A stretch of DNA of 64,000 bases, taken from NCBI GenBank assembly GCA_903887415.1, contig CAISPO010000037.1:1-64000 (forward strand). Reading direction: 5' to 3'. Each line of letters opens with the position of its first letter. The stretch's first letter is position 1. Origin of the DNA: an uncultured Bacteroidota bacterium. Lineage in GTDB: Bacteria > Bacteroidota > Bacteroidia > Chitinophagales > Chitinophagaceae. Under the pieces are notes generated by a model. That model was not told the origin of the DNA and made no database searches. It saw nothing but the letters and a program-made list of their open reading frames with translations. The position numbers were made by a program, and so were the translations under genes. Shown here piece after piece: positions 6,292-18,880 of the stretch.

Positions 6292-6747
6292 TCAGTCTGT
6301 ATTTCTCATTTTTTCGAGTAGTTCGCTGAGCAGGGTTGCTTCACTATCATCCAGACCGCTAATTCTTTTTTGCATAGCATCAACAAGTATATTGGAGCTT
6401 TCTACCTGTTTCAAGCCATTGTCAGTGAGTGATATTAGTGTTTCCCGCTTATCTTCTCTTGAGGGCGTACGTTTTACCAGTTTTTTTATAAGCAACCTGT
6501 CTATTATCCGGGGAACGTTTGAGCTTTTTTCGATCATCCTCGAACCAATGTCTTTTACACACATTTGCTCCGGATGCTTGCCTTTCAGTATCCGCAGTAC
6601 GTTAAACTGTTCTATCGTCAAACCATTTTCTTTCAGCACAGTGTTCAGATGTGTTTTCATCCAATAGCTGGTGTACATAAGGTTGACCGATGCCTTATGC
6701 GCAGGATCCGTAAACCGATTTGATTTTATGGCTTCTTCCAGTTTCAT
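6292..6747 (-). CDS. MarR-family winged-helix transcriptional regulator
   Basis: A 151-residue protein of usual MarR length. Residues 24-50 form the dimerisation helix region; residues 45-110 are the winged helix-turn-helix, including FNVLRILKGKHPEQMCVKDIG, MIEKSSNVPRIIDRL (recognition helix) and the wing RTPSREDKRETLISLTDNG, the DxR-type wing of the family; a C-terminal helix follows. It sits alone between the B12 riboswitch and the exopolysaccharide operon, on the same strand as both. Its -7 box is only four bases before the ATG, so the mRNA is probably leaderless. The ligand and targets cannot be read from sequence. Confidence 0.9.
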   Translation of the reverse strand: MKLEEAIKSNRFTDPAHKASVNLMYTSYWMKTHLNTVLKENGLTIEQFNVLRILKGKHPEQMCVKDIGSRMIEKSSNVPRIIDRLLIKKLVKRTPSREDKRETLISLTDNGLKQVESSNILVDAMQKRISGLDDSEATLLSELLEKMRNTD

Positions 6748-6837: not shown

Positions 6838-9087
6838 TCACTGCACGTATATTTCATCGCAAGCTATCATCGGCTTTTTATTATCACGGTAGCGCCATTC
6901 CGGGAGACTGGTTAGGTTGTTTGCAGTCACCCTGATATATCTTACGTTATCGGCTTTAGGTGCGTTAAATTCTTTTAGAGACAGGTTATAATGCTCCTCA
7001 GGGCCAGAATTTTTAATATCCCCTATCGAATGATAGTTCATGCCATCAGACGAAGCCTCTACTGTTATCTTTTCCGGAAGGAAGATCCAGTGCCTTGGAT
7101 CATCGAGGAAGTGCATTTTTACGTTGCTTATGTTTATTACTTTTCCCAGGTCAATGGTCGCCACCATAGGCACGCCATAAAAGCACAGCCAATTGTAGCT
7201 AAAATCGTTGTAGCCCGGTGTGCCATCTACGAGTGTGCGGTTGCCTTTGGCTGGATAATCTGGCGCGAATGGGTATTGCAATGTAACGGTGGCATCTGTT
7301 GCTTTTGTTGGTGTTACCCCAGCCTTTAAGATGGCATCCCATTCGGTTTGGTACTGGTCCGGGCTAAGGCCGCCTTCCGACAGTTCGGTAACGCCTGCTT
7401 TTTTACAATTAGTTACGAACCTGGTTATTTTGTCTGCCAGTTTGGGCTTCACTGCCCAGTCTCCGGACCGTTCTTTCACAAATACCCCAAACTTCTCAAT
7501 GCCATAAAAGCGGGCCTGCTGCAGCACGGTATATTCCAGCGGCAATCTTGCCCTTATTACCCGATCCAGCAATGTCGCATTGGTCTCTACTGCGGCCTCC
7601 GCATTGTCAAGGATCACGCTGTATTGATCCAGCAACTCCGGTGTGAGGTAGGAGTTCCATTCATTTACGGGGTTACCATAGATGTCGAGTTTGCGATGGG
7701 AGGCCAGCATTTTTTCCTCCAGCAGATCTTTATATTGCTGCATATAGATGGCAGCCGGGCCATAATAAGCAGCCAAAAAATCGGTGGTTAGCTGATTCAC
7801 ATTTGCTTTATCGTTTGCTAACAACTTCGCAGTAAGGTAGCTCCGCAGCTCAGCCCATTCGCTATAGGTGTCACCGCTGCCCTGTGCAAACACGCCCTTC
7901 ACGCCGTTCTCTATGAAGAACTGCATGTTGGGTTGCAGTGTCCGGAAATTGGGGAATGGCGCCAGGTAATTTGTGAACTCGGTAATATAGTCCCATACAA
8001 ACAAGTTGGGAGTAAGAGCGCCCCACGCTTTCACATCATTTCTAAAAGCGCCTGCCGAGCCTTCAGTAAGCAATGGCTTATCGCGATATGCATCAATATC
8101 ACTGAGGAAAATATAGACATTGGATGCAGGCTTTAAGTTTTTTGGCGCACGGTGGGTGAAGCCGTAGGCGAGGGTAGTGATCGTCTTCTCGGGGAATGCT
8201 TCGGCCACACGGTTTACAAACTGTATCAGTGAGCCGGAGGGGCTGCCCTGAGCATCGTTTGCAGCTTTACATTTATCACATTCACAATAGCCAATATCAT
8301 CATTAGGGCTTACCGACCAGTAAACGGCATCAGGATTGGCTGCCATTCTTGTTTTAAGGCCGTCAACCACTATTTTATACACGTCCTCGTTTGACAGACA
8401 GAGCTGTGTTGGTTGCCTTGTGCCCTTTACCAGCGCATAATATTCGGGATGAGGTTTAAAGTAGGTTTTCGCTGGTACTAATTTATCGTAAGAATGGCCC
8501 CATAGCCCCCAGAGGTCTTCAAATTGCTGCAATTGGTTCCACTCTATGTATTCGGCATCATGGCTTGCAGGATAGTACACTTCCCGATAGATGAGCTGTG
8601 GTTTGCTTTCCTCGTGCAGATGGCCGGGGACCACTATCGTTTTAGAGACAGCGACTATTGCGGGATCGCTGCTTATCTTCCTGCAATGCAGGTATTTTTC
8701 TATAAAGCCATACACACCATAAATAAGCCCCTTCCCGCTGCCACCATAAAAAACGAGGTCTTTGCCATCAGTGATCAACAGGCTGCCTTCTGCAGGTATT
8801 TTGCCGGGGATTATTTTTTTCTCTTTTACTGTATGGCCTATGTATATGGCAGGTGCAGCGATAACGGTGTGGTCGTCTGATACGGCCAGTTGCACACCGG
8901 ATACCCGCTGCACATAATCCTGCAGCACCTGGGCGGCATGTTTTTCCAGCTTAGTTGCAGTAACCGGGATAATGATCTTGTACTCGGAATTATTGTTATC
9001 CGCTAAAACAAGTTCCTGCGCACTACCATTGCAGGCATTAAGTGTGATCAGCGCGATAAAGCACCCATATAGCCATGCTTTAGCCAT
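6838..9087 (-). CDS. DUF4838 glycan-active lipoprotein with C-terminal discoidin domain
   Basis: A 749-residue lipoprotein: the signal ends in LNAC, so Cys19 is the lipidated residue. Residues about 45-150 resemble the alpha-glucuronidase N-terminal domain (KLEKHAAQVLQDYVQRVSGV, GGSGKGLIYGVYGFIEKYL). Residues 170-450 are the DUF4838 glycoside-hydrolase-like core with the typical SPNDDIGYCECDKCKA block near residue 268. Residues about 600-749 are an F5/8 type C (discoidin, CBM32-like) carbohydrate-binding domain (VATIDLGKVINISNVKMHFL, EASSDGMNY, RYIRVTANN). It is the last gene of the exopolysaccharide operon, 10 bases after the TPR/barrel exporter. By position it may take the place that PgaB holds in pga operons, trimming or modifying the exported polymer. 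The enzymatic activity of DUF4838 is not established by sequence. Confidence 0.82.
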   Translation of the reverse strand: MAKAWLYGCFIALITLNACNGSAQELVLADNNNSEYKIIIPVTATKLEKHAAQVLQDYVQRVSGVQLAVSDDHTVIAAPAIYIGHTVKEKKIIPGKIPAEGSLLITDGKDLVFYGGSGKGLIYGVYGFIEKYLHCRKISSDPAIVAVSKTIVVPGHLHEESKPQLIYREVYYPASHDAEYIEWNQLQQFEDLWGLWGHSYDKLVPAKTYFKPHPEYYALVKGTRQPTQLCLSNEDVYKIVVDGLKTRMAANPDAVYWSVSPNDDIGYCECDKCKAANDAQGSPSGSLIQFVNRVAEAFPEKTITTLAYGFTHRAPKNLKPASNVYIFLSDIDAYRDKPLLTEGSAGAFRNDVKAWGALTPNLFVWDYITEFTNYLAPFPNFRTLQPNMQFFIENGVKGVFAQGSGDTYSEWAELRSYLTAKLLANDKANVNQLTTDFLAAYYGPAAIYMQQYKDLLEEKMLASHRKLDIYGNPVNEWNSYLTPELLDQYSVILDNAEAAVETNATLLDRVIRARLPLEYTVLQQARFYGIEKFGVFVKERSGDWAVKPKLADKITRFVTNCKKAGVTELSEGGLSPDQYQTEWDAILKAGVTPTKATDATVTLQYPFAPDYPAKGNRTLVDGTPGYNDFSYNWLCFYGVPMVATIDLGKVINISNVKMHFLDDPRHWIFLPEKITVEASSDGMNYHSIGDIKNSGPEEHYNLSLKEFNAPKADNVRYIRVTANNLTSLPEWRYRDNKKPMIACDEIYVQ

Positions 9088-9097
9088 CTGTTCTATT

Positions 9098-12010
9098 TTA
9101 GAATCTCCGCAGCAGGCCTACGCTCACATCGTACTGGTTCAGGAAATAATTCGTATAAGACTGCAGGTTAGACCATGCAACATTGACCAGGATCGTTGTA
9201 CGGTAAAATACTTGCCTTTGATAGCCGGCGCCTACCGTTACCGTATTATATGCATTTAATGCAAAAGCGCTAAAGTCATGAATTATATCATCAGGAGCGT
9301 TGCCATACCCGGCAATGAATGAAAAGAATTCGGTGTGGTTTTCTCTCAGGTAATATTTTGAGGTAAAGCTAACCGCAAAATAATCCTTGTTAGCAATACC
9401 GGTATAATTCACGAAGATCGGTGAACCACGCAGGCTCAGGTAAAAATCGTTCAATTCTTTGGATATACCTATTACCGGCGATATATAAGTAGCGTTGTTA
9501 AACAGGGAGATGTACATATACCTTATCCCGAGCTCGCCGGTATAGCCGTGCTTAAAACTATGGAATAGGGAATAGCCCAGGCGGAGGTCGGGAAACTCAG
9601 TAGGGTCGGGTGAGTAGCCTGCCATACCCCACGAGTACCAGTTCTTCTTATGATTGATATTCGCTTCCGCTTCAAACTCATAACCAGTGCCATTAAACCT
9701 GCCGGCATAGTTAATGCGGCCTGTGATGGAACCGCCATCCCACCTGCGGGTATATTGTGCAGTTGCGATGCTTGTTAAGTTACGTTTTCCTGTAGAGTCA
9801 GTTAGCAGGGAATGCAGATAAAATAAGCCGATCTCATTTTTCAGCGTGTGGCTATACAGATACTGGTCATAGTCAGCTACTTTCGGGTCAAACGGATTCA
9901 TTTTAAGCAGGGTATCTTCAGATAGCCATGCATCATACCATTTCTTCTCGCTCTCCAGTATCAATGCCCTTTTTGACAGGAAATAAGGATTTCCCGGATA
10001 AAAGAAACGGCCATGGTCTATCAGCACCAATGCGCTGTCGTATTGGCCCATCTGGTTAAGCAGGTTGATGGTGTAATATAATGGTATAGTATCGGACGGC
10101 GCTTCAGCAAGCGCCCTTTTAAATTCAATGAGCGCGCTGTCCGTATTGCTGTTTTCGAGGTATTGTTTTCCGGAACCAATGAGCTGATCGACATACGCAG
10201 TTTTAAAGCGGGTGTTGTAGGGATAGTTGGCATACAACTGACCGGATATAGCGTAAGCCGCCTGGTAGTTCTTCGCCTCTGCATTCACTACAGATTTCTT
10301 AAACAGGAAGTCAGTGGATTCAGGGTAATAACGTAAAGCCTGGTCAACAAACTGGAGGGCGGCAGGATACTGCTTCAGCGCCATCTGTATATTGATCATG
10401 TAGTTAAGGGCGTCAACATTGTCGGGCTGGGCGTCCAGCACTTCTTTCAGTATCTTGAGTGTGTTGTAATAATCATCGTATTGCATGGACTGCCGGCCGG
10501 CTGCGAGCGACTGCTCCACGAGGCTCACGAGATACTGACGGTTATCATGGTGTTTCTGCAGCAGCCTGCCGGATATGGCGGCAGCGTCTTCATAACGCTG
10601 GCTGGTTTCCAGTATGCCCGCTTTTTTGAACAGCATCTGTTCATCATCCGGGTTATGTTCCAGCGCCTGATCTATTACCTGCAAAGCGTCATCATAGCGC
10701 TTTTCTGCAAGGTAACTGTTGATCAGGTAGTTCATGGCGGTCACGTTGTTGTGATCATAATACAGCACTACTTTCAGTGCCTTTGCTGCACTATCGTATG
10801 CCTGGTCGTTCATGAACATTTTTGCACTTTGCAGCTTCAGTTCTATAAATTCATCTTTTGCCGCCTGTGAACGATTATCCTTATACAGCCGCTCCGCAAT
10901 CATAGAGGCTTGTCCATAATTTTTCAATGACTCGAGTATGCCTAATTTTTTCTTCAGCAGCTCGTGGTCATTGGGTGAATTTTTCAGGCCGTAATTTACC
11001 CATCTCAGCGCTTCTGTCAGCAATCCTCTGCTAAAGGCTATGTTGATACAATAGTTCAGTGCTTCCGTATTGCCGGGATCCTTGTCCAGCACCGCCTGGA
11101 ACTGGGTATATGGATCGGTATTCAGGAAGAACCTTCCGGCTTCCATGCGTATGTAAACATTGAGCTTGTGTACTTCCGGGTTACCCTTGTAGAGCTTTGA
11201 CAATTTTTCCACTACCTCGATCGCTTCCAGGTAACGGGACATCGCATCGAGTATAGCAATTTTTTTCATGAGAAACTCATAAGAGTTTGGTGTAGCGGTG
11301 AGCGCCCGGTTTACATACTCCAGGGAGCTTTCATAATTACCAGACCTAACATCAAGGGCATAGATTGCCTGTAGCGCTTCTTTGTTCATCGGGTCCTGTT
11401 CCAATACAGATTCATATGCCCGCTTGGCTATTTCTATATACCCACGGTGGGAATACTGGCGCGCGAGGTTGAGCTTAAAGTCCAGGAACACGCTTCTTAT
11501 GTACGCATCGGTTGAGAACCTTTCATAGAGGTAATCGGCCATTTTGTTCGCTTCCATCCAGTCACCCTCCTTCAGGTAAATATCCAGTTTCTTCAAAAGG
11601 ATGTCACGGTCATCAGGGAAGTATTTAAGCCCCATGCCAGCATACTCCAGCGCCTGGAGATAGTTACAAGCGGTTGCCTCCAGGTTTATAAGGTAGATAT
11701 AGGCATCACGGTATTTCGGATTTTTTTCAATAACGAAATTTAACTCATAACGGGCGCTATCGATCTTACCGGCCAGCGAAAATGCGCGACCTAATAACAA
11801 ATGAATGTCCAGGTTATGGGGCGAAATATCCTTCGCCTTATTGCAGAGATTAATGGCTTTCTGGTAATGCTTTAAGTCTATCTCCCTTTTTGCATCCTTG
11901 TACAAATTGTCGGACGACTCTATCATTTTGAGCCATTGGGCGTTTGCGCCCAGGCTCAATAAGACAAGTATTGCCAGAATTACCAACCTTGGGGTTGATC
12001 TTATTTTCAT
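9098..12010 (-). CDS. TPR protein with C-terminal outer-membrane beta-barrel (PgaA/YaiO-like exporter)
   Basis: A 970-residue protein. The signal peptide ends in GANAQ (residue 25). Residues 30-700 are about eighteen TPR helical pairs, with many copies of the pattern ALNYxINxxxxxxxYxxALxxVDQAL. Residues about 740-970 are a beta-barrel of YaiO type, with repeated antiparallel strands such as WYSWGMAGYSPD and NATYISPVIGISKEL, and a terminal Phe. This is the PgaA layout: a periplasmic TPR superhelix that guides polymer to an outer-membrane pore. It follows the two synthase genes by 21 bases and precedes the DUF4838 gene by 10, so all are probably one transcript. Export of the product of the GT2 pair is inferred from architecture and operon. 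Confidence 0.85.
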   Translation of the reverse strand: MKIRSTPRLVILAILVLLSLGANAQWLKMIESSDNLYKDAKREIDLKHYQKAINLCNKAKDISPHNLDIHLLLGRAFSLAGKIDSARYELNFVIEKNPKYRDAYIYLINLEATACNYLQALEYAGMGLKYFPDDRDILLKKLDIYLKEGDWMEANKMADYLYERFSTDAYIRSVFLDFKLNLARQYSHRGYIEIAKRAYESVLEQDPMNKEALQAIYALDVRSGNYESSLEYVNRALTATPNSYEFLMKKIAILDAMSRYLEAIEVVEKLSKLYKGNPEVHKLNVYIRMEAGRFFLNTDPYTQFQAVLDKDPGNTEALNYCINIAFSRGLLTEALRWVNYGLKNSPNDHELLKKKLGILESLKNYGQASMIAERLYKDNRSQAAKDEFIELKLQSAKMFMNDQAYDSAAKALKVVLYYDHNNVTAMNYLINSYLAEKRYDDALQVIDQALEHNPDDEQMLFKKAGILETSQRYEDAAAISGRLLQKHHDNRQYLVSLVEQSLAAGRQSMQYDDYYNTLKILKEVLDAQPDNVDALNYMINIQMALKQYPAALQFVDQALRYYPESTDFLFKKSVVNAEAKNYQAAYAISGQLYANYPYNTRFKTAYVDQLIGSGKQYLENSNTDSALIEFKRALAEAPSDTIPLYYTINLLNQMGQYDSALVLIDHGRFFYPGNPYFLSKRALILESEKKWYDAWLSEDTLLKMNPFDPKVADYDQYLYSHTLKNEIGLFYLHSLLTDSTGKRNLTSIATAQYTRRWDGGSITGRINYAGRFNGTGYEFEAEANINHKKNWYSWGMAGYSPDPTEFPDLRLGYSLFHSFKHGYTGELGIRYMYISLFNNATYISPVIGISKELNDFYLSLRGSPIFVNYTGIANKDYFAVSFTSKYYLRENHTEFFSFIAGYGNAPDDIIHDFSAFALNAYNTVTVGAGYQRQVFYRTTILVNVAWSNLQSYTNYFLNQYDVSVGLLRRF

Positions 12011-12031
12011 GTTATACTTTTAAAGGTTAAA

Positions 12032-13579
12032 CTAGCCTGCTTTAACAGCACTTTTTCTTCTCTGGCCTCCAAACCCTTGCCGCTGCATATTCCCCCACAC
12101 ATGTTTACGGCCTGTGACAAAATTAAAATACCCTTTCAGCGCAAAGAACATGATCAGCGGGTGATAAACGAACGGCTCAATAAAAGCCATCAAACACAGT
12201 CCTATCGTTTCGCCCCAAGTCTTATAATATTTAAAAGTTATCTGGTCCCACAACAAGGCCAAAGTGGTGATCATTACAGAATAGGTATAAACAAATACCA
12301 GGAGAATGATCGCAAATGGCCAGTTGATCTGCTTTGTCAATATCAGGTAAATGTAAAAAAGAATACCCGTAAATTCTATTAGCGGCGCCCAAAGCTCAAA
12401 CAGGAAATTGTAAGGGAATACGATAAGCCCGAGCCTGCCATAGCGAGGATTGAAGATGACCTTTCGGTGAATACTCATGATCTGCGCCAAGCCGCGTCCC
12501 CAGCGGCTGCGCTGGCGGCCAAACACTTTAAGGGTAGAGGGCCCTTCCGTCCAGCAAAGCGTGATGGGTACGTACTTAACGGAGTATTTACGTTTGTTAT
12601 CCTTCATCAGGCAGCACATACGCGTGATGAGGTCCATATCTTCACCGAAAGACTTAGAGTCATAGCCTCCGGCTTTCACAGCAATCTCTTTATCGAACAT
12701 TCCAAGGCCGCCAGATACGTTTGGGACGGCATTGATCAGGTCCCAGCCCATTTTGCCGAGCACGAATGCCCTGATGTATTCCATTTCCTGGAACCGGGGC
12801 AGGAACTTCACAGGAGGGCGCACTCTTATCATCAATCCTTCATCCACATCGCATGAGTTTACCATGCGCAGGGTAGCACCTGTAGCTATTACTTTTCTGT
12901 AATCTTCTTTTACATGCACATAGCCGCATTCCGGGCAAGGTGTGCCGATCTCTTTTATTTTGGTGATCTCCTCATCCATAAATGGCTTGATGAGCTTGAT
13001 GAGGGTGTCCTTGTCAAGGATGCAATCCACGTCCGTACAAAGGAAGTATTCGTATGATGATATGTTGATACCGGCATTCGACGCATCAGCTTTACTCTTG
13101 CCATTTATCTTGTCAACTACTATCAGCTTGTCATAAGCGCGGTTTGTGGACTTAAATATTCTTTTGATCGGCTCGCTGTTCAGTTTTTCTATGAATGCAT
13201 ATTCCACATGAACAAGGTCAAATTCGCGGATGAGTTTCTCCAGTGTATCATCTGTACTACCATCATTAATAATGATCACTTCAAACTTCGGGTAGTTGAA
13301 CGTAAGCAGCGACCGCACATTCGATATGATCGTCACTCCTTCGTTATATGCTGGCGCAATTACTGATATACCGGGCGCCAGTGGAGATTCAACGATGATA
13401 TTATAATCAACCGAAGCATTTTTTTTCATGTACCTCCTGATGGAGATGAGCGACATGATGGCAAGCGAGGCATATGCCATAAGCAGTGTGGTGCCGTAAA
13501 CGAATACGCCAGACTGGTAATAGCTACCAAGATTCTCCCAAAATACCCCCTTGTTGAAAAACTCTAATATCGCCCTCAT
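12032..13579 (-). CDS. Membrane GT2 polysaccharide synthase (second of tandem pair)
   Basis: A 515-residue processive GT2 glycosyltransferase. One transmembrane helix lies at residues 24-47 and three or four follow after about 385. The cytosolic domain (70-370) has PAYNE (77-80), NDGSTDD (105-111), the DVD metal-binding motif (183-185), GED (312-314) and QRSRW (356-360), the QxxRW signature of processive synthases of the PgaC, cellulose and hyaluronan type. Residues about 205-228 are an insertion absent from its tandem paralogue and carry CPEC (215-218), which could hold a metal or form a disulfide. It follows the paralogue by 18 bases. The substrate cannot be read; poly-GlcNAc or a related polymer is plausible from the pga-like setting. 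Confidence 0.88.
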   Translation of the reverse strand: MRAILEFFNKGVFWENLGSYYQSGVFVYGTTLLMAYASLAIMSLISIRRYMKKNASVDYNIIVESPLAPGISVIAPAYNEGVTIISNVRSLLTFNYPKFEVIIINDGSTDDTLEKLIREFDLVHVEYAFIEKLNSEPIKRIFKSTNRAYDKLIVVDKINGKSKADASNAGINISSYEYFLCTDVDCILDKDTLIKLIKPFMDEEITKIKEIGTPCPECGYVHVKEDYRKVIATGATLRMVNSCDVDEGLMIRVRPPVKFLPRFQEMEYIRAFVLGKMGWDLINAVPNVSGGLGMFDKEIAVKAGGYDSKSFGEDMDLITRMCCLMKDNKRKYSVKYVPITLCWTEGPSTLKVFGRQRSRWGRGLAQIMSIHRKVIFNPRYGRLGLIVFPYNFLFELWAPLIEFTGILFYIYLILTKQINWPFAIILLVFVYTYSVMITTLALLWDQITFKYYKTWGETIGLCLMAFIEPFVYHPLIMFFALKGYFNFVTGRKHVWGNMQRQGFGGQRRKSAVKAG

Positions 13580-13597
13580 TGTATTTCCAATAAATAA

Positions 13598-15055
13598 TTA
13601 AGTTGCAGCGGTTGTACTTGCTGCAGAACTTGGTTTGAAACCCCTCCGCTGCATATTCCCCCAGGAATGCTTCCTGTTGAAAATATGGAAAAAATATCCT
13701 CTCAGCGCAAACACCACGATCAGCGGATGATACAAGATCATTTCTACAAATACCATCACGGCTATCCTTGCCACATCTGTCCACGTTTTGTAATACTGGA
13801 AGGTCAACTGGTCCCAGAGCACAGCAAGTGTAGAGATCATTATGGCAAAAGAGTAAACAAATATCAGCAGTATGATTGCATAGGGCCAGTTGGCCAGGCC
13901 AAATACTGCAAGCAGGATATAATAAATGATGCCTACAGATTCAACGAACGGCGCCATGAGCTCAAACAGGAAATTGTATGGAAACATGATCATGCCCACC
14001 CTGCCATAGCGCGGGTTAAACAGCATTTTGCGGTGGGTAACCATCAATTGAAACAGGCCGCGTCCCCATCTTGTGCGCTGCCTCATGAATACCTTTAACG
14101 AGGTCGGCCCTTCCGTCCAGCAAAGTGTTACCGGTATGTAACGGACAGCAGCCTTAATTTTATTGTCATGGACATAGCGGTTCATGCGCATCAGCAGTTC
14201 CATGTCCTCACCGAAAGAAGCGGGGTCATATCCCCCGGCCTTAATTGCAATCTCCTTATCAAACATACCGAGGCCGCCCGACACGTTGGGCACACAGTTG
14301 ATCTGGCTCCAGCCCATTTTGCCGAGCACAAATGAGCGGATATACTCCAGTTCCTGGAAGCGGGCCAGCAATGGCCGCGGAGCTTTCACCTTAATAATTA
14401 CACCTTTATCTATTTCGCACGAATTCGCCATTCTAAGAGTAGCCCCGGTGGCTATGACGCGGGCGTTTTCCTCCTCCATTATAGGCCTTATCAGCTTCTG
14501 CAGCGTTTGCTCATGGAGTATGCAGTCCACGTCCGTACACAAAAAGTATGGAAATGAAGCAATATTGATACCAGCATTCGTTGCATCTGCTTTCGACTTG
14601 CCATTTTCTTTATCCACGATCACCAGCTTCGCATACGCATCATCGGTTGATTTGTAGATACCCCGTATTGGCTTTGATACAATTTTAATATCGAAAGCAA
14701 AATCGATCTTCACCAGCGAAAACTCCTTGATCACTTTTTCCAAAGTATCATCGGTACTGCCGTCATTGATTATGATCACTTCATACTTGGGATAGTCGAA
14801 CGTAAGCAGGGACCTTACATTGCTGATGATGGTAAGCCCTTCATTAAAAGCCGGCGCAATAACAGATACGCCGGGTGCAAGCTCAGAGCCTACAATGACT
14901 TTATAATCAGTATAGCTTTCTTTTCTTAAGAACCTCCGTACACTGTAAAAAGAAAAAAGCGCCAGGCAAGCATATATAATAAGCAAGGTAACACCGTACA
15001 CAAATACGGTCTTTTCGAAAATCAGCTGTAAGTGCTCTAATAAAGTTCTTATCAT
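13598..15055 (-). CDS. Membrane GT2 polysaccharide synthase (first of tandem pair)
   Basis: A 485-residue GT2 synthase closely similar to its downstream neighbour. The start at 15055 is chosen because its ATG overlaps the TGA of the HEAT-repeat gene (TGATG), a sign of translational coupling, and because it aligns with the start of the paralogue; an in-frame codon at 15082 is possible but would lie inside that gene. It has an N-terminal membrane helix (16-38), NDGSTDD (97-103), DVD (175-177), GED (282-284), QRTRW (326-330) and three or four C-terminal helices. Tandem synthases suggest either a heterodimer or a polymer of two sugars, with the copies diverged in a 20-residue insertion. Confidence 0.88.
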   Translation of the reverse strand: MIRTLLEHLQLIFEKTVFVYGVTLLIIYACLALFSFYSVRRFLRKESYTDYKVIVGSELAPGVSVIAPAFNEGLTIISNVRSLLTFDYPKYEVIIINDGSTDDTLEKVIKEFSLVKIDFAFDIKIVSKPIRGIYKSTDDAYAKLVIVDKENGKSKADATNAGINIASFPYFLCTDVDCILHEQTLQKLIRPIMEEENARVIATGATLRMANSCEIDKGVIIKVKAPRPLLARFQELEYIRSFVLGKMGWSQINCVPNVSGGLGMFDKEIAIKAGGYDPASFGEDMELLMRMNRYVHDNKIKAAVRYIPVTLCWTEGPTSLKVFMRQRTRWGRGLFQLMVTHRKMLFNPRYGRVGMIMFPYNFLFELMAPFVESVGIIYYILLAVFGLANWPYAIILLIFVYSFAIMISTLAVLWDQLTFQYYKTWTDVARIAVMVFVEMILYHPLIVVFALRGYFFHIFNRKHSWGNMQRRGFKPSSAASTTAAT

Positions 15056-16209
15056 CAATACTTGATTAGTGGATTCAGGCAATGCTTAATTATCAACTGG
15101 TTTTCCTCATGTGTCATTTCCATCAGTTCTTCAACCATCAGCCGTGAGTTCTGTGTGTTGTGCCTGATGATGGAACGGGCAGCATTCATGCGGATATCAA
15201 AGTTGGAAGAGTATAGAAATTCTGACTTGAGGAACTCCAGGTGTTTGCCCGAAGCTATACGGCCCAATGCTTTTAATATCTCTATCTGGCAATTAAGCGG
15301 CTGGTTGTTGTATATTTTCACCAGTTTGTCTTCGGCTACCTCTGCGGATAGTTTGCCGAGGCAATTGATTGCATCTGCCCTGAAATAGTGATCCTTATTT
15401 GAGAGCAGTTCCATTACCGCCGGTATGGTGCTTTGCTGGTCATAGTGGGCGATGAGCTTCAGGCAGAAGGAAACAATGCTCTTGTTGGTTGAATAGCTTA
15501 CCCAGCGGGAGAAATTGGGTATCGCGATGTCTTTGGTAGTTGTTATGATCTTGAACATCTCCAACTGGTCCCATGGCAGCAATGGCTCTGTGGCTATGTC
15601 AAAGAATTTGAAAGGTTCGTTTTTACTTAGCTGGATATAGGCGTTCCTTGCTGCCGCACGCAACGCGGGAATACCGCTGTTGGTTAATGGCAATATAGTT
15701 ACGTCCGATATCGGGATATCCATCTGTGTCAGTTCTACTACTGCCTTTATTTTCCGCTCCCAGCGCAACGTTTTCATTTTAGCGAATGAGTCTTTATCGA
15801 GGCCCATGTCGATATACAATTTGCGCAGGAGCTCGCCCACCTCACCCCTGAAGTTTTTGCGGTATTGTATCAGTGTGTCTATCAGCATTTGCCGCACAAA
15901 GGGTTTGCGGTATATCTTGTCGCCAAGCGCATTCGGATCGAACTCGATACTTTCCAGCGGAATGTCATAGCCAAGATTGGGGTTGAGCAACACCTGCTCG
16001 GTGATCATGTCTTCTATCTTAGGGCTGATAAAAGCCATCCTTTTCTCATAGACATAAGCGCGGTAGCGCTTATGCAATATGGCGCCGTAAGCAATGAGTG
16101 TGGACAGGATAGCAAGGAATATAAAAGCCAGTGCTATTTCTATGAAAAGAGGTAACAGGCTGTATTGCTCGTAGGCCTGAAATAAGAGGTCTGCCAGATC
16201 TTTCCACAT
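15055..16209 (-). CDS. Membrane-anchored HEAT-repeat protein
   Basis: A 384-residue protein. Residues 15-45 form a single hydrophobic helix (IEIALAFIFLAILSTLIAYG), followed by a basic stretch, so the body is probably cytosolic. Residues 160-384 contain HEAT-like helical pairs (TIPAVMELLSNKDHYFRADA, INCLGKLSAEVAEDKLVKIY, EILKALGRIASGKHLEFLKS, FDIRMNAARSIIRHN). HEAT solenoids bind proteins, so a scaffold for the synthases or a receptor for the response regulator is plausible. The gene starts 9 bases after the response regulator gene and its stop overlaps the start of the first GT2. No catalytic motif is seen. Confidence 0.8.
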   Translation of the reverse strand: MWKDLADLLFQAYEQYSLLPLFIEIALAFIFLAILSTLIAYGAILHKRYRAYVYEKRMAFISPKIEDMITEQVLLNPNLGYDIPLESIEFDPNALGDKIYRKPFVRQMLIDTLIQYRKNFRGEVGELLRKLYIDMGLDKDSFAKMKTLRWERKIKAVVELTQMDIPISDVTILPLTNSGIPALRAAARNAYIQLSKNEPFKFFDIATEPLLPWDQLEMFKIITTTKDIAIPNFSRWVSYSTNKSIVSFCLKLIAHYDQQSTIPAVMELLSNKDHYFRADAINCLGKLSAEVAEDKLVKIYNNQPLNCQIEILKALGRIASGKHLEFLKSEFLYSSNFDIRMNAARSIIRHNTQNSRLMVEELMEMTHEENQLIIKHCLNPLIKY

Positions 16210-16218
16210 GGATGTCTA

Positions 16219-16620
16219 TTATTTTTTTTTCGTGACTAGCTGTGATGTACTGTTCTTGTTTGATAGCAGTTTCCTGATACGTATGAGCAGTTCTCCTGCC
16301 ATAATAGGTTTCTTCAGGTAGTCGTCGGCGCCCAATCTGAAAGCCTCTGTGATCGTTTCTTCATTGCCAACCGACGAAATGACGATAATACCTACATTCC
16401 TCTTGGTTTCGTCACTCCTCAGCCGGCTCACTACTTCCAGGCCGTTTGCATATGGCATCATGAGGTCTGTAACCACGACCTCATAGTCGGCATTTTCCAG
16501 CTTTTCAAAAGCCTCCTTACCGTCTTTTGCTGTAATAACCACATAGCCATCCTTACCCAGGATATTTCTGATGGCTTTAAGCATTATATCATCATCTTCA
16601 ATTACAAGTATGTTGGGCAT
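16219..16620 (-). CDS. CheY-like single-domain response regulator
   Basis: A 133-residue receiver domain without output domain. The acidic pocket is Asp9-Asp10, the phosphoacceptor is Asp52 in VVVTDLMMP, Ser82/Ser83 takes the switch Thr/Ser position, and Lys104-Pro105 (YLKKP) is the conserved lysine turn. The protein ends in a short basic tail. It is the first gene of the exopolysaccharide operon and lies 200 bases after the TPR histidine kinase gene, so the two are a likely signalling pair that acts on polymer synthesis, perhaps through the HEAT protein, rather than on DNA. That last step is inference. Confidence 0.9.
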   Translation of the reverse strand: MPNILVIEDDDIMLKAIRNILGKDGYVVITAKDGKEAFEKLENADYEVVVTDLMMPYANGLEVVSRLRSDETKRNVGIIVISSVGNEETITEAFRLGADDYLKKPIMAGELLIRIRKLLSNKNSTSQLVTKKK

Positions 16621-16713
16621 GGTGTTAAGATAACTATAAAACTGTGCCAGTTACCCGGCAAATTAACAAATGTGTTATTATTAATAAGGCAACAAATATC
16701 TGCTTTTTTGCAC

Positions 16714-16721
16714 CAAATATA
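16714..16721 (-). promoter_or_regulatory. -7 box upstream of the response regulator operon
   Basis: TATATTTG on the minus strand matches TAnnTTTG. It lies about 94 bases before the ATG at 16620 in an AT-rich gap. A TTG occurs 25 bases upstream (16747-16749), slightly farther than the usual -33 spacing. It would drive the six-gene exopolysaccharide operon separately from the kinase gene. Confidence 0.4.
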
Positions 16722-16820
16722 GTGCATTTGCTATACATTAACTAATCAATATGCAAGCACTGTTAATAATTGCCGCACATGAAATATCTAAATGATTGAT
16801 CGTTAATTATTTGAATAACC

Positions 16821-18149
16821 CTAGACCGTTATTTTTGTCGGAAATTCAAAATGGAATGTAGTTCCTTTACCTTCTTCCGAGTCAAACCAGATATTTCCCT
16901 GGTGTGCGCGGGCGATCTGAAGGGATATAGACAGGCCCAGCCCAAACGGCACTTCGCCAGATGTGCCGGGTATTTTGGCCTGCGTGAACATATCAAATAC
17001 AAAGGGCCTGTTTTTTTCCGGTATGCCCACTCCTGAATCTTTCACGTCAATATGAACCATGCCATCTTTCAATTCGAGGCTCACCAGTATCTCTGAGTTC
17101 TCGTAACTGAATTTTATGGCGTTTGCGATCAGGTTATTAATAACGCGCCATATTTTTTCTTTATTTACAAATGCCAATATATCTCCGGCGCCTATGGATG
17201 TTTTTATCTGCTGGTGCTTGGCATGTGCCCTGAAATTCAGCAGCTCAGCACAGTTGGCCACCAGTTTTTTCATGTCCACCCATTCTTTGCCCATATTGCC
17301 CTCGTCTATGTCCATAGCCGCTTCAAGGATATTCTTACTTAAGTTGAGCGAGTTTTTGCATGCTTCTTTTATGAGGTTCAGTATTTCCTTGCTCTCATCA
17401 GAATAGTTGGCAGAATCCTGCTCCAGGATATCTGCCAGCGCTATGATCGAAGCAATGGGGTTCATCACATCATGCGCCACCGACCTCAGGATTCTCGTTT
17501 TATCCTTTTCCTTTTGGTTCAGTTGGGCAATTGCCTTTTCCAGCTTGTCTTTTTGTTCGTTTACCTGGTTGTTCAGCCGTTTCAGCATCACCACATTTTC
17601 ACGCGACCTGATAACGTTTCTCAGGGTGAGGATTATTATGATCAACGCCATAACTGCGACAAGCGTCAGCACCCATACGTATATTCGTTCCTGCACGGCA
17701 TTTTTATTGAGCAGGTCTATTTTGTAATCGCGCTCTATATTTTTTATGCGCCCGTCAATATCAGACGCCATCAGGTTTTTATTTTTTGCAATGGCTGAAT
17801 CATTGAGCGCCGTATAAGCGAGGTAGTATTTATACGCCTGGGCAGAATCCTTTTCATGCTCATTGTATTGCCACATCAGCTTATTCCACGAAAGCGCTGT
17901 ATTTTTATTAGGTATCGTATCCAGCTCGGCCTTGATAAGCTGCAGCACTTCTTTCATCTCACCGATATGGCCGGTTCTGAAATACAAGGTTGCAAGCTTC
18001 ACCTGCGTCAGCAATGCGTCTTCGTTTTCGTAGCCTTTTTGCAGGTTAATTTCTATGCTCTTTTTAAAAAGCGATTTTGCAGTATCATATTGTTTCAGTG
18101 CGATAAAAACATCGGCAACATTGCCCAGCACTACTGCCCGTGCGCTCAA
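16821..18149 (-). CDS. Sensor histidine kinase, C-terminal part (frameshifted from 18146-18880)
   Basis: Reads from a TTG at 18149 but is better seen as the second half of a kinase whose first half ends at 18146. Residues 1-60 complete a TPR begun in the other frame (LGNVADVFIALKQYDTAKSLFKKSIEI); a transmembrane helix lies near 156-177; a coiled coil leads to the HisKA box RSVAHDVMNPIASI (His near 225); the ATPase domain has NLIANAIKFS (N box), DVKDSGVGIP (G1) and GLGLSIS (G2). Adding one T to the T6 run at 18148-18153 joins both halves into about 687 residues. It is the likely partner of the response regulator 200 bases downstream. Sequencing error, decay or frameshifting are all possible. 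Confidence 0.8.
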   Translation of the reverse strand: MSARAVVLGNVADVFIALKQYDTAKSLFKKSIEINLQKGYENEDALLTQVKLATLYFRTGHIGEMKEVLQLIKAELDTIPNKNTALSWNKLMWQYNEHEKDSAQAYKYYLAYTALNDSAIAKNKNLMASDIDGRIKNIERDYKIDLLNKNAVQERIYVWVLTLVAVMALIIIILTLRNVIRSRENVVMLKRLNNQVNEQKDKLEKAIAQLNQKEKDKTRILRSVAHDVMNPIASIIALADILEQDSANYSDESKEILNLIKEACKNSLNLSKNILEAAMDIDEGNMGKEWVDMKKLVANCAELLNFRAHAKHQQIKTSIGAGDILAFVNKEKIWRVINNLIANAIKFSYENSEILVSLELKDGMVHIDVKDSGVGIPEKNRPFVFDMFTQAKIPGTSGEVPFGLGLSISLQIARAHQGNIWFDSEEGKGTTFHFEFPTKITV

Positions 18150-18880
18150 AAAACGTTGGCGGGCTTGTTAAAGCGCATGAAGTTGGAGTCAATATATTTT
18201 ATTGCTTTGTCGTAGTACGACAGCGCCCTGTCATAACGCTGGCTCTTGTAGTAGCAAAGGCCAATATTATCCAGCAGTTCCTGTCTGTGATAAAAAAAAG
18301 CGAAAATATCCTGGCATTGTTCTGCCTCACGATAAGATTCAATAAAATAATTGGCGCTGTTTAGATAATTCTGTTGCCGGTACAGCGCCATTCCAAGGCT
18401 GTAGCTATACTTGCTCATAGAGCAACTGTCCCCATTTTCATTAGCCATGGTTTTGGCGCGGTAATAGTAGTCGTAAGATTCATTATACAGCTCTTTGGCA
18501 AATAGCGCATCAGCCTTCATGTTATATACCTGCACATATTTTCCTTTGAGGGTTTTACCATATTTACTATTGTCCAGTACGCGTATCATACTGTCGCTGT
18601 ATGCAATACATTTATCATAGTCATCCAGGTCCTTTTTATAGATATCCCAGCAATAGAAATAATAATTCAGATCGTCGATCAAAGTGAGGTTTGATGCATG
18701 GCTATGTGTGGATACCACAAGCGCCAGGGCATCTGGTTTATTGCCGGCGTCATATAATTGCTCTGCTTTTTTTATTACATTATCAAAATAAGGAGTGCTC
18801 ACGGGTGGCTTTTCGCTCCTGTAAGAACACGAATAGAAGAAAAAAGAAGATATTAAAAGAATAAAAGCCGTTCCCCTCAA
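18146..18880 (-). CDS. Sensor histidine kinase, N-terminal TPR part (frameshifted)
   Basis: A 244-residue open frame with a TTG start at 18880; no ATG or GTG is available before the signal peptide. The N-terminus is lipoprotein-like (ISSFFFYSC, then SYRSEK). Residues 30-240 are TPR helices (NKPDALALV, AKELYNESYDYYYRAKTMA, SQRYDRALSYYDKAIKYI). The frame ends at TGA inside GTT-TTT-TGA, in the middle of a TPR that continues in the -1 frame. TPR-plus-kinase sensors of this layout are common in Bacteroidota. With the second half it would be a periplasmic TPR sensor, one membrane helix and a cytoplasmic kinase. Confidence 0.75.
   Translation of the reverse strand: MRGTAFILLISSFFFYSCSYRSEKPPVSTPYFDNVIKKAEQLYDAGNKPDALALVVSTHSHASNLTLIDDLNYYFYCWDIYKKDLDDYDKCIAYSDSMIRVLDNSKYGKTLKGKYVQVYNMKADALFAKELYNESYDYYYRAKTMANENGDSCSMSKYSYSLGMALYRQQNYLNSANYFIESYREAEQCQDIFAFFYHRQELLDNIGLCYYKSQRYDRALSYYDKAIKYIDSNFMRFNKPANVF

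Follow-up and report, generated by a model that had tools for sequence, protein, structure and literature searches.

What does a six-gene operon of a Chitinophagaceae bacterium build, and what would switch it on? The genes in question lie in the window analysed here, a 64,000-nt stretch of contig CAISPO010000037.1 (GCA_903887415.1) from an uncultured Bacteroidota bacterium of this family. According to the ORF list of the window they run, all on the minus strand, in the order receiver (RR), HEAT-repeat protein, two GT2 synthases (GTA and GTB), TPR-barrel protein and DUF4838 protein (Table 1). The initial annotation had described six same-strand genes separated by short gaps or a start-stop overlap, and this is what the coordinates give: 9 bases between RR and HEAT, a 1-base overlap (TGATG) between HEAT and GTA, 18 bases between GTA and GTB, 21 between GTB and the TPR-barrel gene, and 10 between the latter and the DUF4838 gene. 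The gene classes named there were likewise borne out by domain models, with PF00072 in the receiver, HEAT_2 in the second protein, PF00535/PF13641 in each of the two GT2s, TPR and PF19413 in the barrel protein and PF16126 in the lipoprotein, whose F5/8 type C match is sub-threshold (26.4 versus 28.2 bits). The first-listed reading frame of GTA comprises 494 aa from a TTG at 15082; judged from the sequences, the ATG at 15055, which overlaps the HEAT stop codon and is common to most relatives, appears the likelier start. A block like AAAGC-GATATTTG is seen upstream in several rows of an alignment of the window with 14 relatives.

Table 1. The operon and the neighbouring kinase ORFs, with positions in the window and the evidence for each assignment
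Feature	Positions	Strand	Evidence
Stand-alone receiver (RR), 133 aa; phospho-acceptor D52, acidic D9, switch S82, K104	16219..16620	(-)	PF00072 100 bits
Membrane-anchored HEAT solenoid, 384 aa; single TM near residues 21-39, remainder helical repeats	15055..16209	(-)	PF13646 (HEAT_2), hydropathy, AlphaFold
GT2 synthase A (GTA), 485 aa from ATG 15055	13598..15055	(-)	PF00535 68 bits, motifs, start-stop overlap with HEAT
GT2 synthase B (GTB), 515 aa	12032..13579	(-)	PF00535 67 bits, catalytic motifs, tree group apart from GTA
GTB-specific insertion, CPECGYxH (C215, C218), approximate borders	12902..12967	(-)	Alignment: distribution of the Cys pair
TPR + YaiO-family outer-membrane beta-barrel, 970 aa, presumed exporter	9098..12010	(-)	TPR_19 149 bits, PF19413 81 bits, TIGR04390
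DUF4838 + F5/8C-like lipoprotein, 749 aa, lipobox LNAC, glycosidase-like predicted fold	6838..9087	(-)	PF16126 318 bits, AlphaFold, Foldseek
Sensor kinase, C-terminal piece (TPR, TM, HisKA, HATPase_c), candidate RR kinase	16821..18149	(-)	PF02518, PF00512
Sensor kinase, N-terminal TPR piece, own ORF in the window	18146..18880	(-)	Alignment with the L083 kinase (residues 1-244)

Relatives of the operon were collected by a HEAT profile scan over one genome per species, and the best 80 of 109 confirmed relatives were kept. Their record titles name Flavipsychrobacter, Taibaiella, Chitinophaga, Chitinophagaceae, uncultured Bacteroidetes and similar organisms; one locus (L125), titled Beijerinckiaceae, may be misbinned. 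Within these best 80 of 109, an RR gene is located no more than 1.2 kb upstream of HEAT at all 79 loci that have at least 400 bases of flank. Sixty-five of the loci extend at least 9 kb downstream, and every one of these has a GT2 (at least two in 54), while a TPR-barrel homologue is present in 63 and a DUF4838 protein in 61, the last two being counted anywhere downstream of HEAT on the same strand and YaiO anywhere in the stretch. RR, GT2, TPR-barrel and DUF4838 are complete in 61/65, the exceptions being L109, L115, L119 and L154. Chance would not give such a recurrence, and the gene set that the initial annotation had proposed to look for in other Bacteroidota genomes does stay together there. 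Among 98 genomes of the family, 27 hold a close or distant HEAT match with an E-value of 1e-5 or lower; the close loci from family genomes, fetched up to 20 kb, carry RR, GT2, YaiO and DUF4838 in 10/10 cases, and one GT2 only is found in the family-genome loci L039, L040 and L047. A MarR gene at 6292-6747 was considered as a further member of the operon and rejected, since just two loci (L083 and L084) of the best 80 of 109 relatives have a related gene after the operon.

The HEAT protein has one TM segment by hydropathy, and its AlphaFold model (pLDDT 86.3, pTM 0.69) is all-helical. An assignment of function by fold was rejected, the matches in the PDB being generic alpha-solenoids only. Over 395 Bacteroidota genomes, a profile built from diverse HEAT sequences gave matches in 112 at E 1e-6, whose scores leave a gap from 78 down to 58 bits. 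Above the gap (78 bits upwards) the family occupies 61 places in 53 of the 395 genomes. Seven low-scoring places, fetched as generic HEAT controls, had no GT2, receiver, YaiO or DUF4838 neighbour (0/7). A set of 43 distant loci was hand-picked, made up of L048-L057 from the family-genome scan and of L193-L225, the latter being 33 of the 61 places above the gap. The set holds genomes G087, G430, G099, G362 and G464 twice, and some of those places also contributed rows to the models by which GT and RR were called. At these loci a GT2 lies directly downstream of HEAT in 42/43 (the exception being L212), an RR lies upstream in 28/43 and a YaiO barrel is found within the stretch in 32/43. A DUF4838-like protein is present in 8/43, none of these eight having an adjacent RR, and at 8 of the 15 loci without an upstream RR a short receiver gene is present in another part of the stretch. 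On these counts HEAT and GT2 form the constant core, with receiver, barrel and DUF4838 as frequent partners. To describe the HEAT protein as standing in place of small accessory proteins, as had been done at the outset, is therefore an understatement, HEAT-GT2 being the pair most constantly kept at the distant loci. In loci of the same family, a sulfatase-fold domain (PF00884) is fused to the GT2 (L050) or follows it (L048).

Both GTA and GTB have the features of a processive GT2 synthase, as the reading of two tandem QxxRW enzymes implied. The D, DxD, ED and QxxRW motifs are all kept in the two proteins, likewise in the aligned rows including 18 distant GT2s, gaps aside, and hydropathy gives each protein one N-terminal and about three C-terminal TM segments. 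In a tree of 68 of the 158 GT2 rows, obtained with a short search, GTA and GTB fall into separate groups (SH-aLRT 96 and 92, respectively), which suggests an old origin of the pair within the clade of close relatives. A distant row (L059) is placed on the GTB side, and the extra GT2 of L123 lies outside both groups. The labels themselves are best BLAST matches: the first-position GTs of L125, L138 and L162 were labelled GTB and group with GTA in the tree. With GTB as query, solved relatives matched too weakly to assign a donor sugar, the best being a chondroitin synthase at 37.5 bits.

A cysteine pair, CxxCG, distinguishes the two synthases, being found in 63/79 rows labelled GTB, 0/61 labelled GTA and none of the 18 distant GT2s. 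After seven of the 80 loci with less than 3.1 kb downstream had been dropped, the pair was traced on a HEAT tree of 74 rows, where it is present in 61/61 two-GT operons and 2/13 one-GT operons (absent from 11/13). GT number changes four times on this tree and the Cys pair twice; among independent pairs two agree, none opposes and two do not differ (p 0.5, sign test). With two informative independent pairs only, we do not regard a link between CxxCG and GTA as statistically shown, and the association, for which the pairs are too few for significance, serves as a lead that hints at GTA-GTB contact. It also bears on whether the two enzymes work together at all. They might not be joint synthases: GTB could be the polymerase and GTA a paralogue adding side sugars, or each could make a polymer of its own. 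Such a division of labour would suit the four changes in GT number if these are read as GTA losses with GTB kept, on a tree that cannot split gain from loss, and would also suit the identity of GTB to its relatives, which is the higher in most loci. The near-restriction of the CxxCG pair to two-GT operons argues the other way, hinting at a GTA-dependent role for GTB on the few independent pairs just given, and we hold separate functions to be somewhat unlikely. A decayed GTA in the one-GT loci was sought and rejected: tblastn of GTA against the 13 loci returned GTB, a weak distant GT2 (L119) and noise, with no GTA remnant between HEAT and GTB in any of them.

The exporter belongs to the YaiO family by both models, PF19413 (81 versus 23.9 bits, residues 724-908) and TIGR04390 (51.5 versus 32 bits), and begins with a signal-type hydrophobic segment. 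Among the matches listed, the literature on YaiO deals mostly with E. coli detection. In the lipoprotein, the lipobox cysteine C19 is nearly invariant. Its AlphaFold model (pLDDT 87.4, pTM 0.84) retrieved BT0459, GH115 alpha-glucuronidases, GH84 O-GlcNAcases and GH67 in Foldseek, and the predicted fold also resembles GH20-type glycosidases. The matches reach E 1.5e-25 with probability 1.00; TM-scores in the top 50 stay below 0.5 (0.29-0.48 by query length), so that they indicate resemblance of fold and are no evidence of activity. At the level of sequence, one solved structure matches clearly, beta-hexosaminidase 6q63 (44 bits, C-terminal part). All of 25/25 rows have the CxCxxC motif and D263; with regard to a catalytic acid pair, the residue beside D263 is acidic in 15/25 (D264 in 13/25). 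A predicted glycosidase acting on the exported chain would fit the role of hydrolases in other EPS operons.

The operon had been introduced as pga-like. Pga is laid out as an inner-membrane GT2, a TPR-plus-barrel exporter and a glycan-acting periplasmic or lipoprotein enzyme, and one could suppose that the present genes are a divergent but true pga operon, which would make poly-GlcNAc (PNAG) with PgaC-like synthases and a PgaA-like exporter. TIGR03937 (PgaC_IcaA) is indeed the best model for both GT2s, scoring 116.6 and 106.1 bits against GTA and GTB, and TIGR03939 (PgaA) matches the TPR part, and that part only, of the exporter at 45.6 bits. These scores are nevertheless far below the respective cut-offs of 422.3 and 366.65 bits, the barrel is of the YaiO type, and a polysaccharide deacetylase domain (PF01522) is found in none of the six proteins, the genome's matches lying elsewhere. 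No match named PgaD is among the matches listed for the six proteins (for the receiver, 25 of 102). Moreover, a GH18-deacetylase-GT2 fusion is encoded elsewhere in the genome and, from its domains, would be a stronger candidate for making PNAG or a chitin-type product. We rejected the identification as a PNAG operon on the low model scores and the missing deacetylase, and consider even a divergent version of it quite improbable. Of the original description, a polysaccharide operon of the synthase type stands, with a pair of GT2s and a receiver of its own; kinship with pga is not supported.

The RR is a single-domain response regulator, PF00072 alone being above cut-off in a protein without an output domain, and so it must act by binding. 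D9 and D52 are kept in 103/103 rows of the RR alignment and K104 in 102/103, the last row having a gap. Upstream of the RR, the sensor kinase of the window is split in two ORFs, where the near relative L083 has a single ORF of 686 aa. Among the best 80 of 109 relatives, the 4 kb upstream contain a kinase like that of the window on the same strand in 15/80 and on the opposite strand in 7/80; the other 58 loci have none within this distance, nine of them with a short flank, which speaks against a fixed kinase partner. The fragment upstream of the RR in L063 and L079 combines a receiver with Hpt, and that in L064 has a kinase end together with a receiver and an Hpt match below threshold. Each of these three fragments is cut by the locus end. 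By its order of domains, this arrangement is the predicted layout of a phosphorelay ending in a stand-alone receiver.

Synthase systems controlled by c-di-GMP include Bcs, Alg and Pga. Neither GGDEF nor PilZ has a match in the operon's own genome, which is 99.3% complete, and we rejected c-di-GMP control of the operon on the absence of both. GGDEF is found in 5/98 genomes of the family; G005 is the only one with a match among the 14 genomes that hold a close HEAT relative. A phosphorylated receiver might of course serve other ends. The RR could function solely in a phosphorelay to distant transcription factors, with HEAT as a constitutive assembly factor and no post-translational control of the synthase. 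HEAT-GT2 pairs without an adjacent upstream RR in 14/43 distant loci would be expected from this (L212, also without a GT2, is the fifteenth locus lacking the RR), and single-domain RRs can work in relays according to PMC12802240. However, the RR adjoins HEAT and not a transcription factor in 79/79 flanked close loci (best 80 of 109), and its place in L063 and L079, downstream of the receiver-Hpt fragment, is where a last phospho-acceptor would be expected. A role confined to such a relay is in our view unlikely.

Overall, the explanation that best covers the whole, and one that we think somewhat more likely than not, is that the operon encodes synthase-dependent polysaccharide biosynthesis and export with a synthase switched by receiver and HEAT. 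At the inner membrane, GTA and GTB would use nucleotide sugars to build a glycan polymer and deliver it to the periplasm. Its family and layout suggest that the TPR-YaiO protein takes the polymer across the outer membrane, and the DUF4838 lipoprotein, with its glycosidase-like predicted fold and carbohydrate-binding-type domain, may trim or modify the chain. HEAT, the neighbour of the synthase genes, would be the regular partner of the synthase at the membrane, presumably in contact with it. We propose that the adjacent kinase or a phosphorelay phosphorylates the RR, which would then bind, most simply to HEAT, and so switch the synthase, the job that c-di-GMP has in Pga, Bcs and Alg. Weighing against this explanation are the 15/43 distant loci with no RR upstream, the eight distant DUF4838 loci that all lack an adjacent RR, the 58/80 close loci with no kinase of this type, the split of the window's own kinase, and the modest TM-scores of the DUF4838 fold matches. 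A bolder version, which we regard as doubtful, would see a Bacteroidota-wide class of synthases with a membrane HEAT control subunit gated by a phospho-receiver, replacing c-di-GMP where this is missing; in Chitinophagaceae the GT2s would form a heteromer, with the Cys-pair insertion of GTB at or near the GTA interface, and make a polymer with a two-sugar repeat.

A description of this operon was not found in the literature searched (titles and abstract openings, subscription papers lying mostly outside reach); the part of PMC12419801 that was available mentions HEAT repeats for beta-catenin only. As far as genome sequences can tell, the operon is a real and widely conserved variant of synthase-dependent polysaccharide systems, undescribed in the literature searched, for which control by phospho-receiver and HEAT is predicted. 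The conserved receiver-HEAT-GT2 unit is a candidate switch of matrix synthesis for bacteria without GGDEF, a group to which 93 of the 98 family genomes belong by their lack of a match.

In comparison with PgaABCD, the operon shares a processive-type GT2, a TPR-barrel exporter and a glycan-acting enzyme or lipoprotein. It differs in having two GT2s, a YaiO-type barrel, no deacetylase and DUF4838 for PgaB, and in placing HEAT and a receiver where Pga has PgaD and c-di-GMP. With regard to YaiO-family genes, the exporter is a member by PF19413 and TIGR04390. The yaiO locus of E. coli has a GT2 and a deacetylase alongside; to our knowledge it has no HEAT or receiver, which the present operon adds. 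The c-di-GMP-controlled synthases Bcs, Alg and Pga resemble the proposed system in that a synthase has a non-catalytic partner as its control point, and differ in their input, which in the operon would be a phospho-receiver in a genome without a GGDEF or PilZ match. PMC12802240 describes the non-catalytic partner of c-di-GMP-controlled synthases as a control point and c-di-GMP control as frequent in synthase-dependent EPS pathways; a receiver-HEAT route would for this reason be a new mode of control for such a pathway. The same source reports that EpsW, a single-domain RR of Myxococcus xanthus, stimulates the EPS-initiating enzyme EpsZ through interaction, a post-translational control of EPS by protein contact like the one proposed here. 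The target of EpsW is a phosphoglycosyl transferase of a Wzx/Wzy pathway (PMC12802240), whereas the operon belongs to a GT2 synthase pathway and would interpose HEAT between receiver and enzyme. If the proposal is true, control of the EpsW type would extend to the synthase pathway.

Elsewhere in the family, genomes other than the window's own carry the unit of receiver, HEAT protein and GT2 glycosyltransferase with a sulfatase-fold domain (PF00884), which is either fused to the GT2 or placed immediately after it (distant loci L050 and L048, respectively). This arrangement suggests that the polymer is decorated by a transferase of the sulfatase fold. Among the hand-picked distant Bacteroidota loci, a HEAT-GT2 pair with a DUF4838-like protein is also found without an adjacent receiver (L195, L198, L199, L200, L201, L203, L209 and L224), and this constitutes a second architecture. 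The HEAT protein frames of L060, L061, L062, L063, L066, L069 and L078 are longer, at ~520–935 aa, and a Pfam scan of the extensions in L060, L062, L069 and L078 gave no matches above the cut-off. The close locus L125 bears a Chitinophagaceae-type operon under a record title of Beijerinckiaceae, and is probably a misbinned contig.

Upstream of the receiver gene, the window and several relatives share the block AAAGC-GATATTTG and, on its kinase side, TATATTTG. Judged against the Bacteroidota promoter consensus, these elements could possibly form a promoter of that type. The upstream TPR sensor kinase is divided into two ORFs with a 4-base overlap; in the near relative L083 it is a single intact 686-aa ORF. 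The split means that the kinase gene is disrupted or that the sequence contains an error.

Coordinates of the features described
Feature	Sequence	Position
Shared block upstream of receiver gene	window	~16690–16725
TPR sensor kinase	window	16821–18880
PF00884 with receiver-HEAT-GT2 unit	L050	6845–10390
PF00884 with receiver-HEAT-GT2 unit	L048	9974–13485
GH18-like/deacetylase/GT2 frame	G000:C16 (L001 913–3495)	~15770–17098

Elsewhere in the window's own genome (G000), a single long frame combines GH18-like, polysaccharide deacetylase and GT2 domains. This fusion is a candidate PNAG or chitin-type synthase, separate from the six-gene operon.
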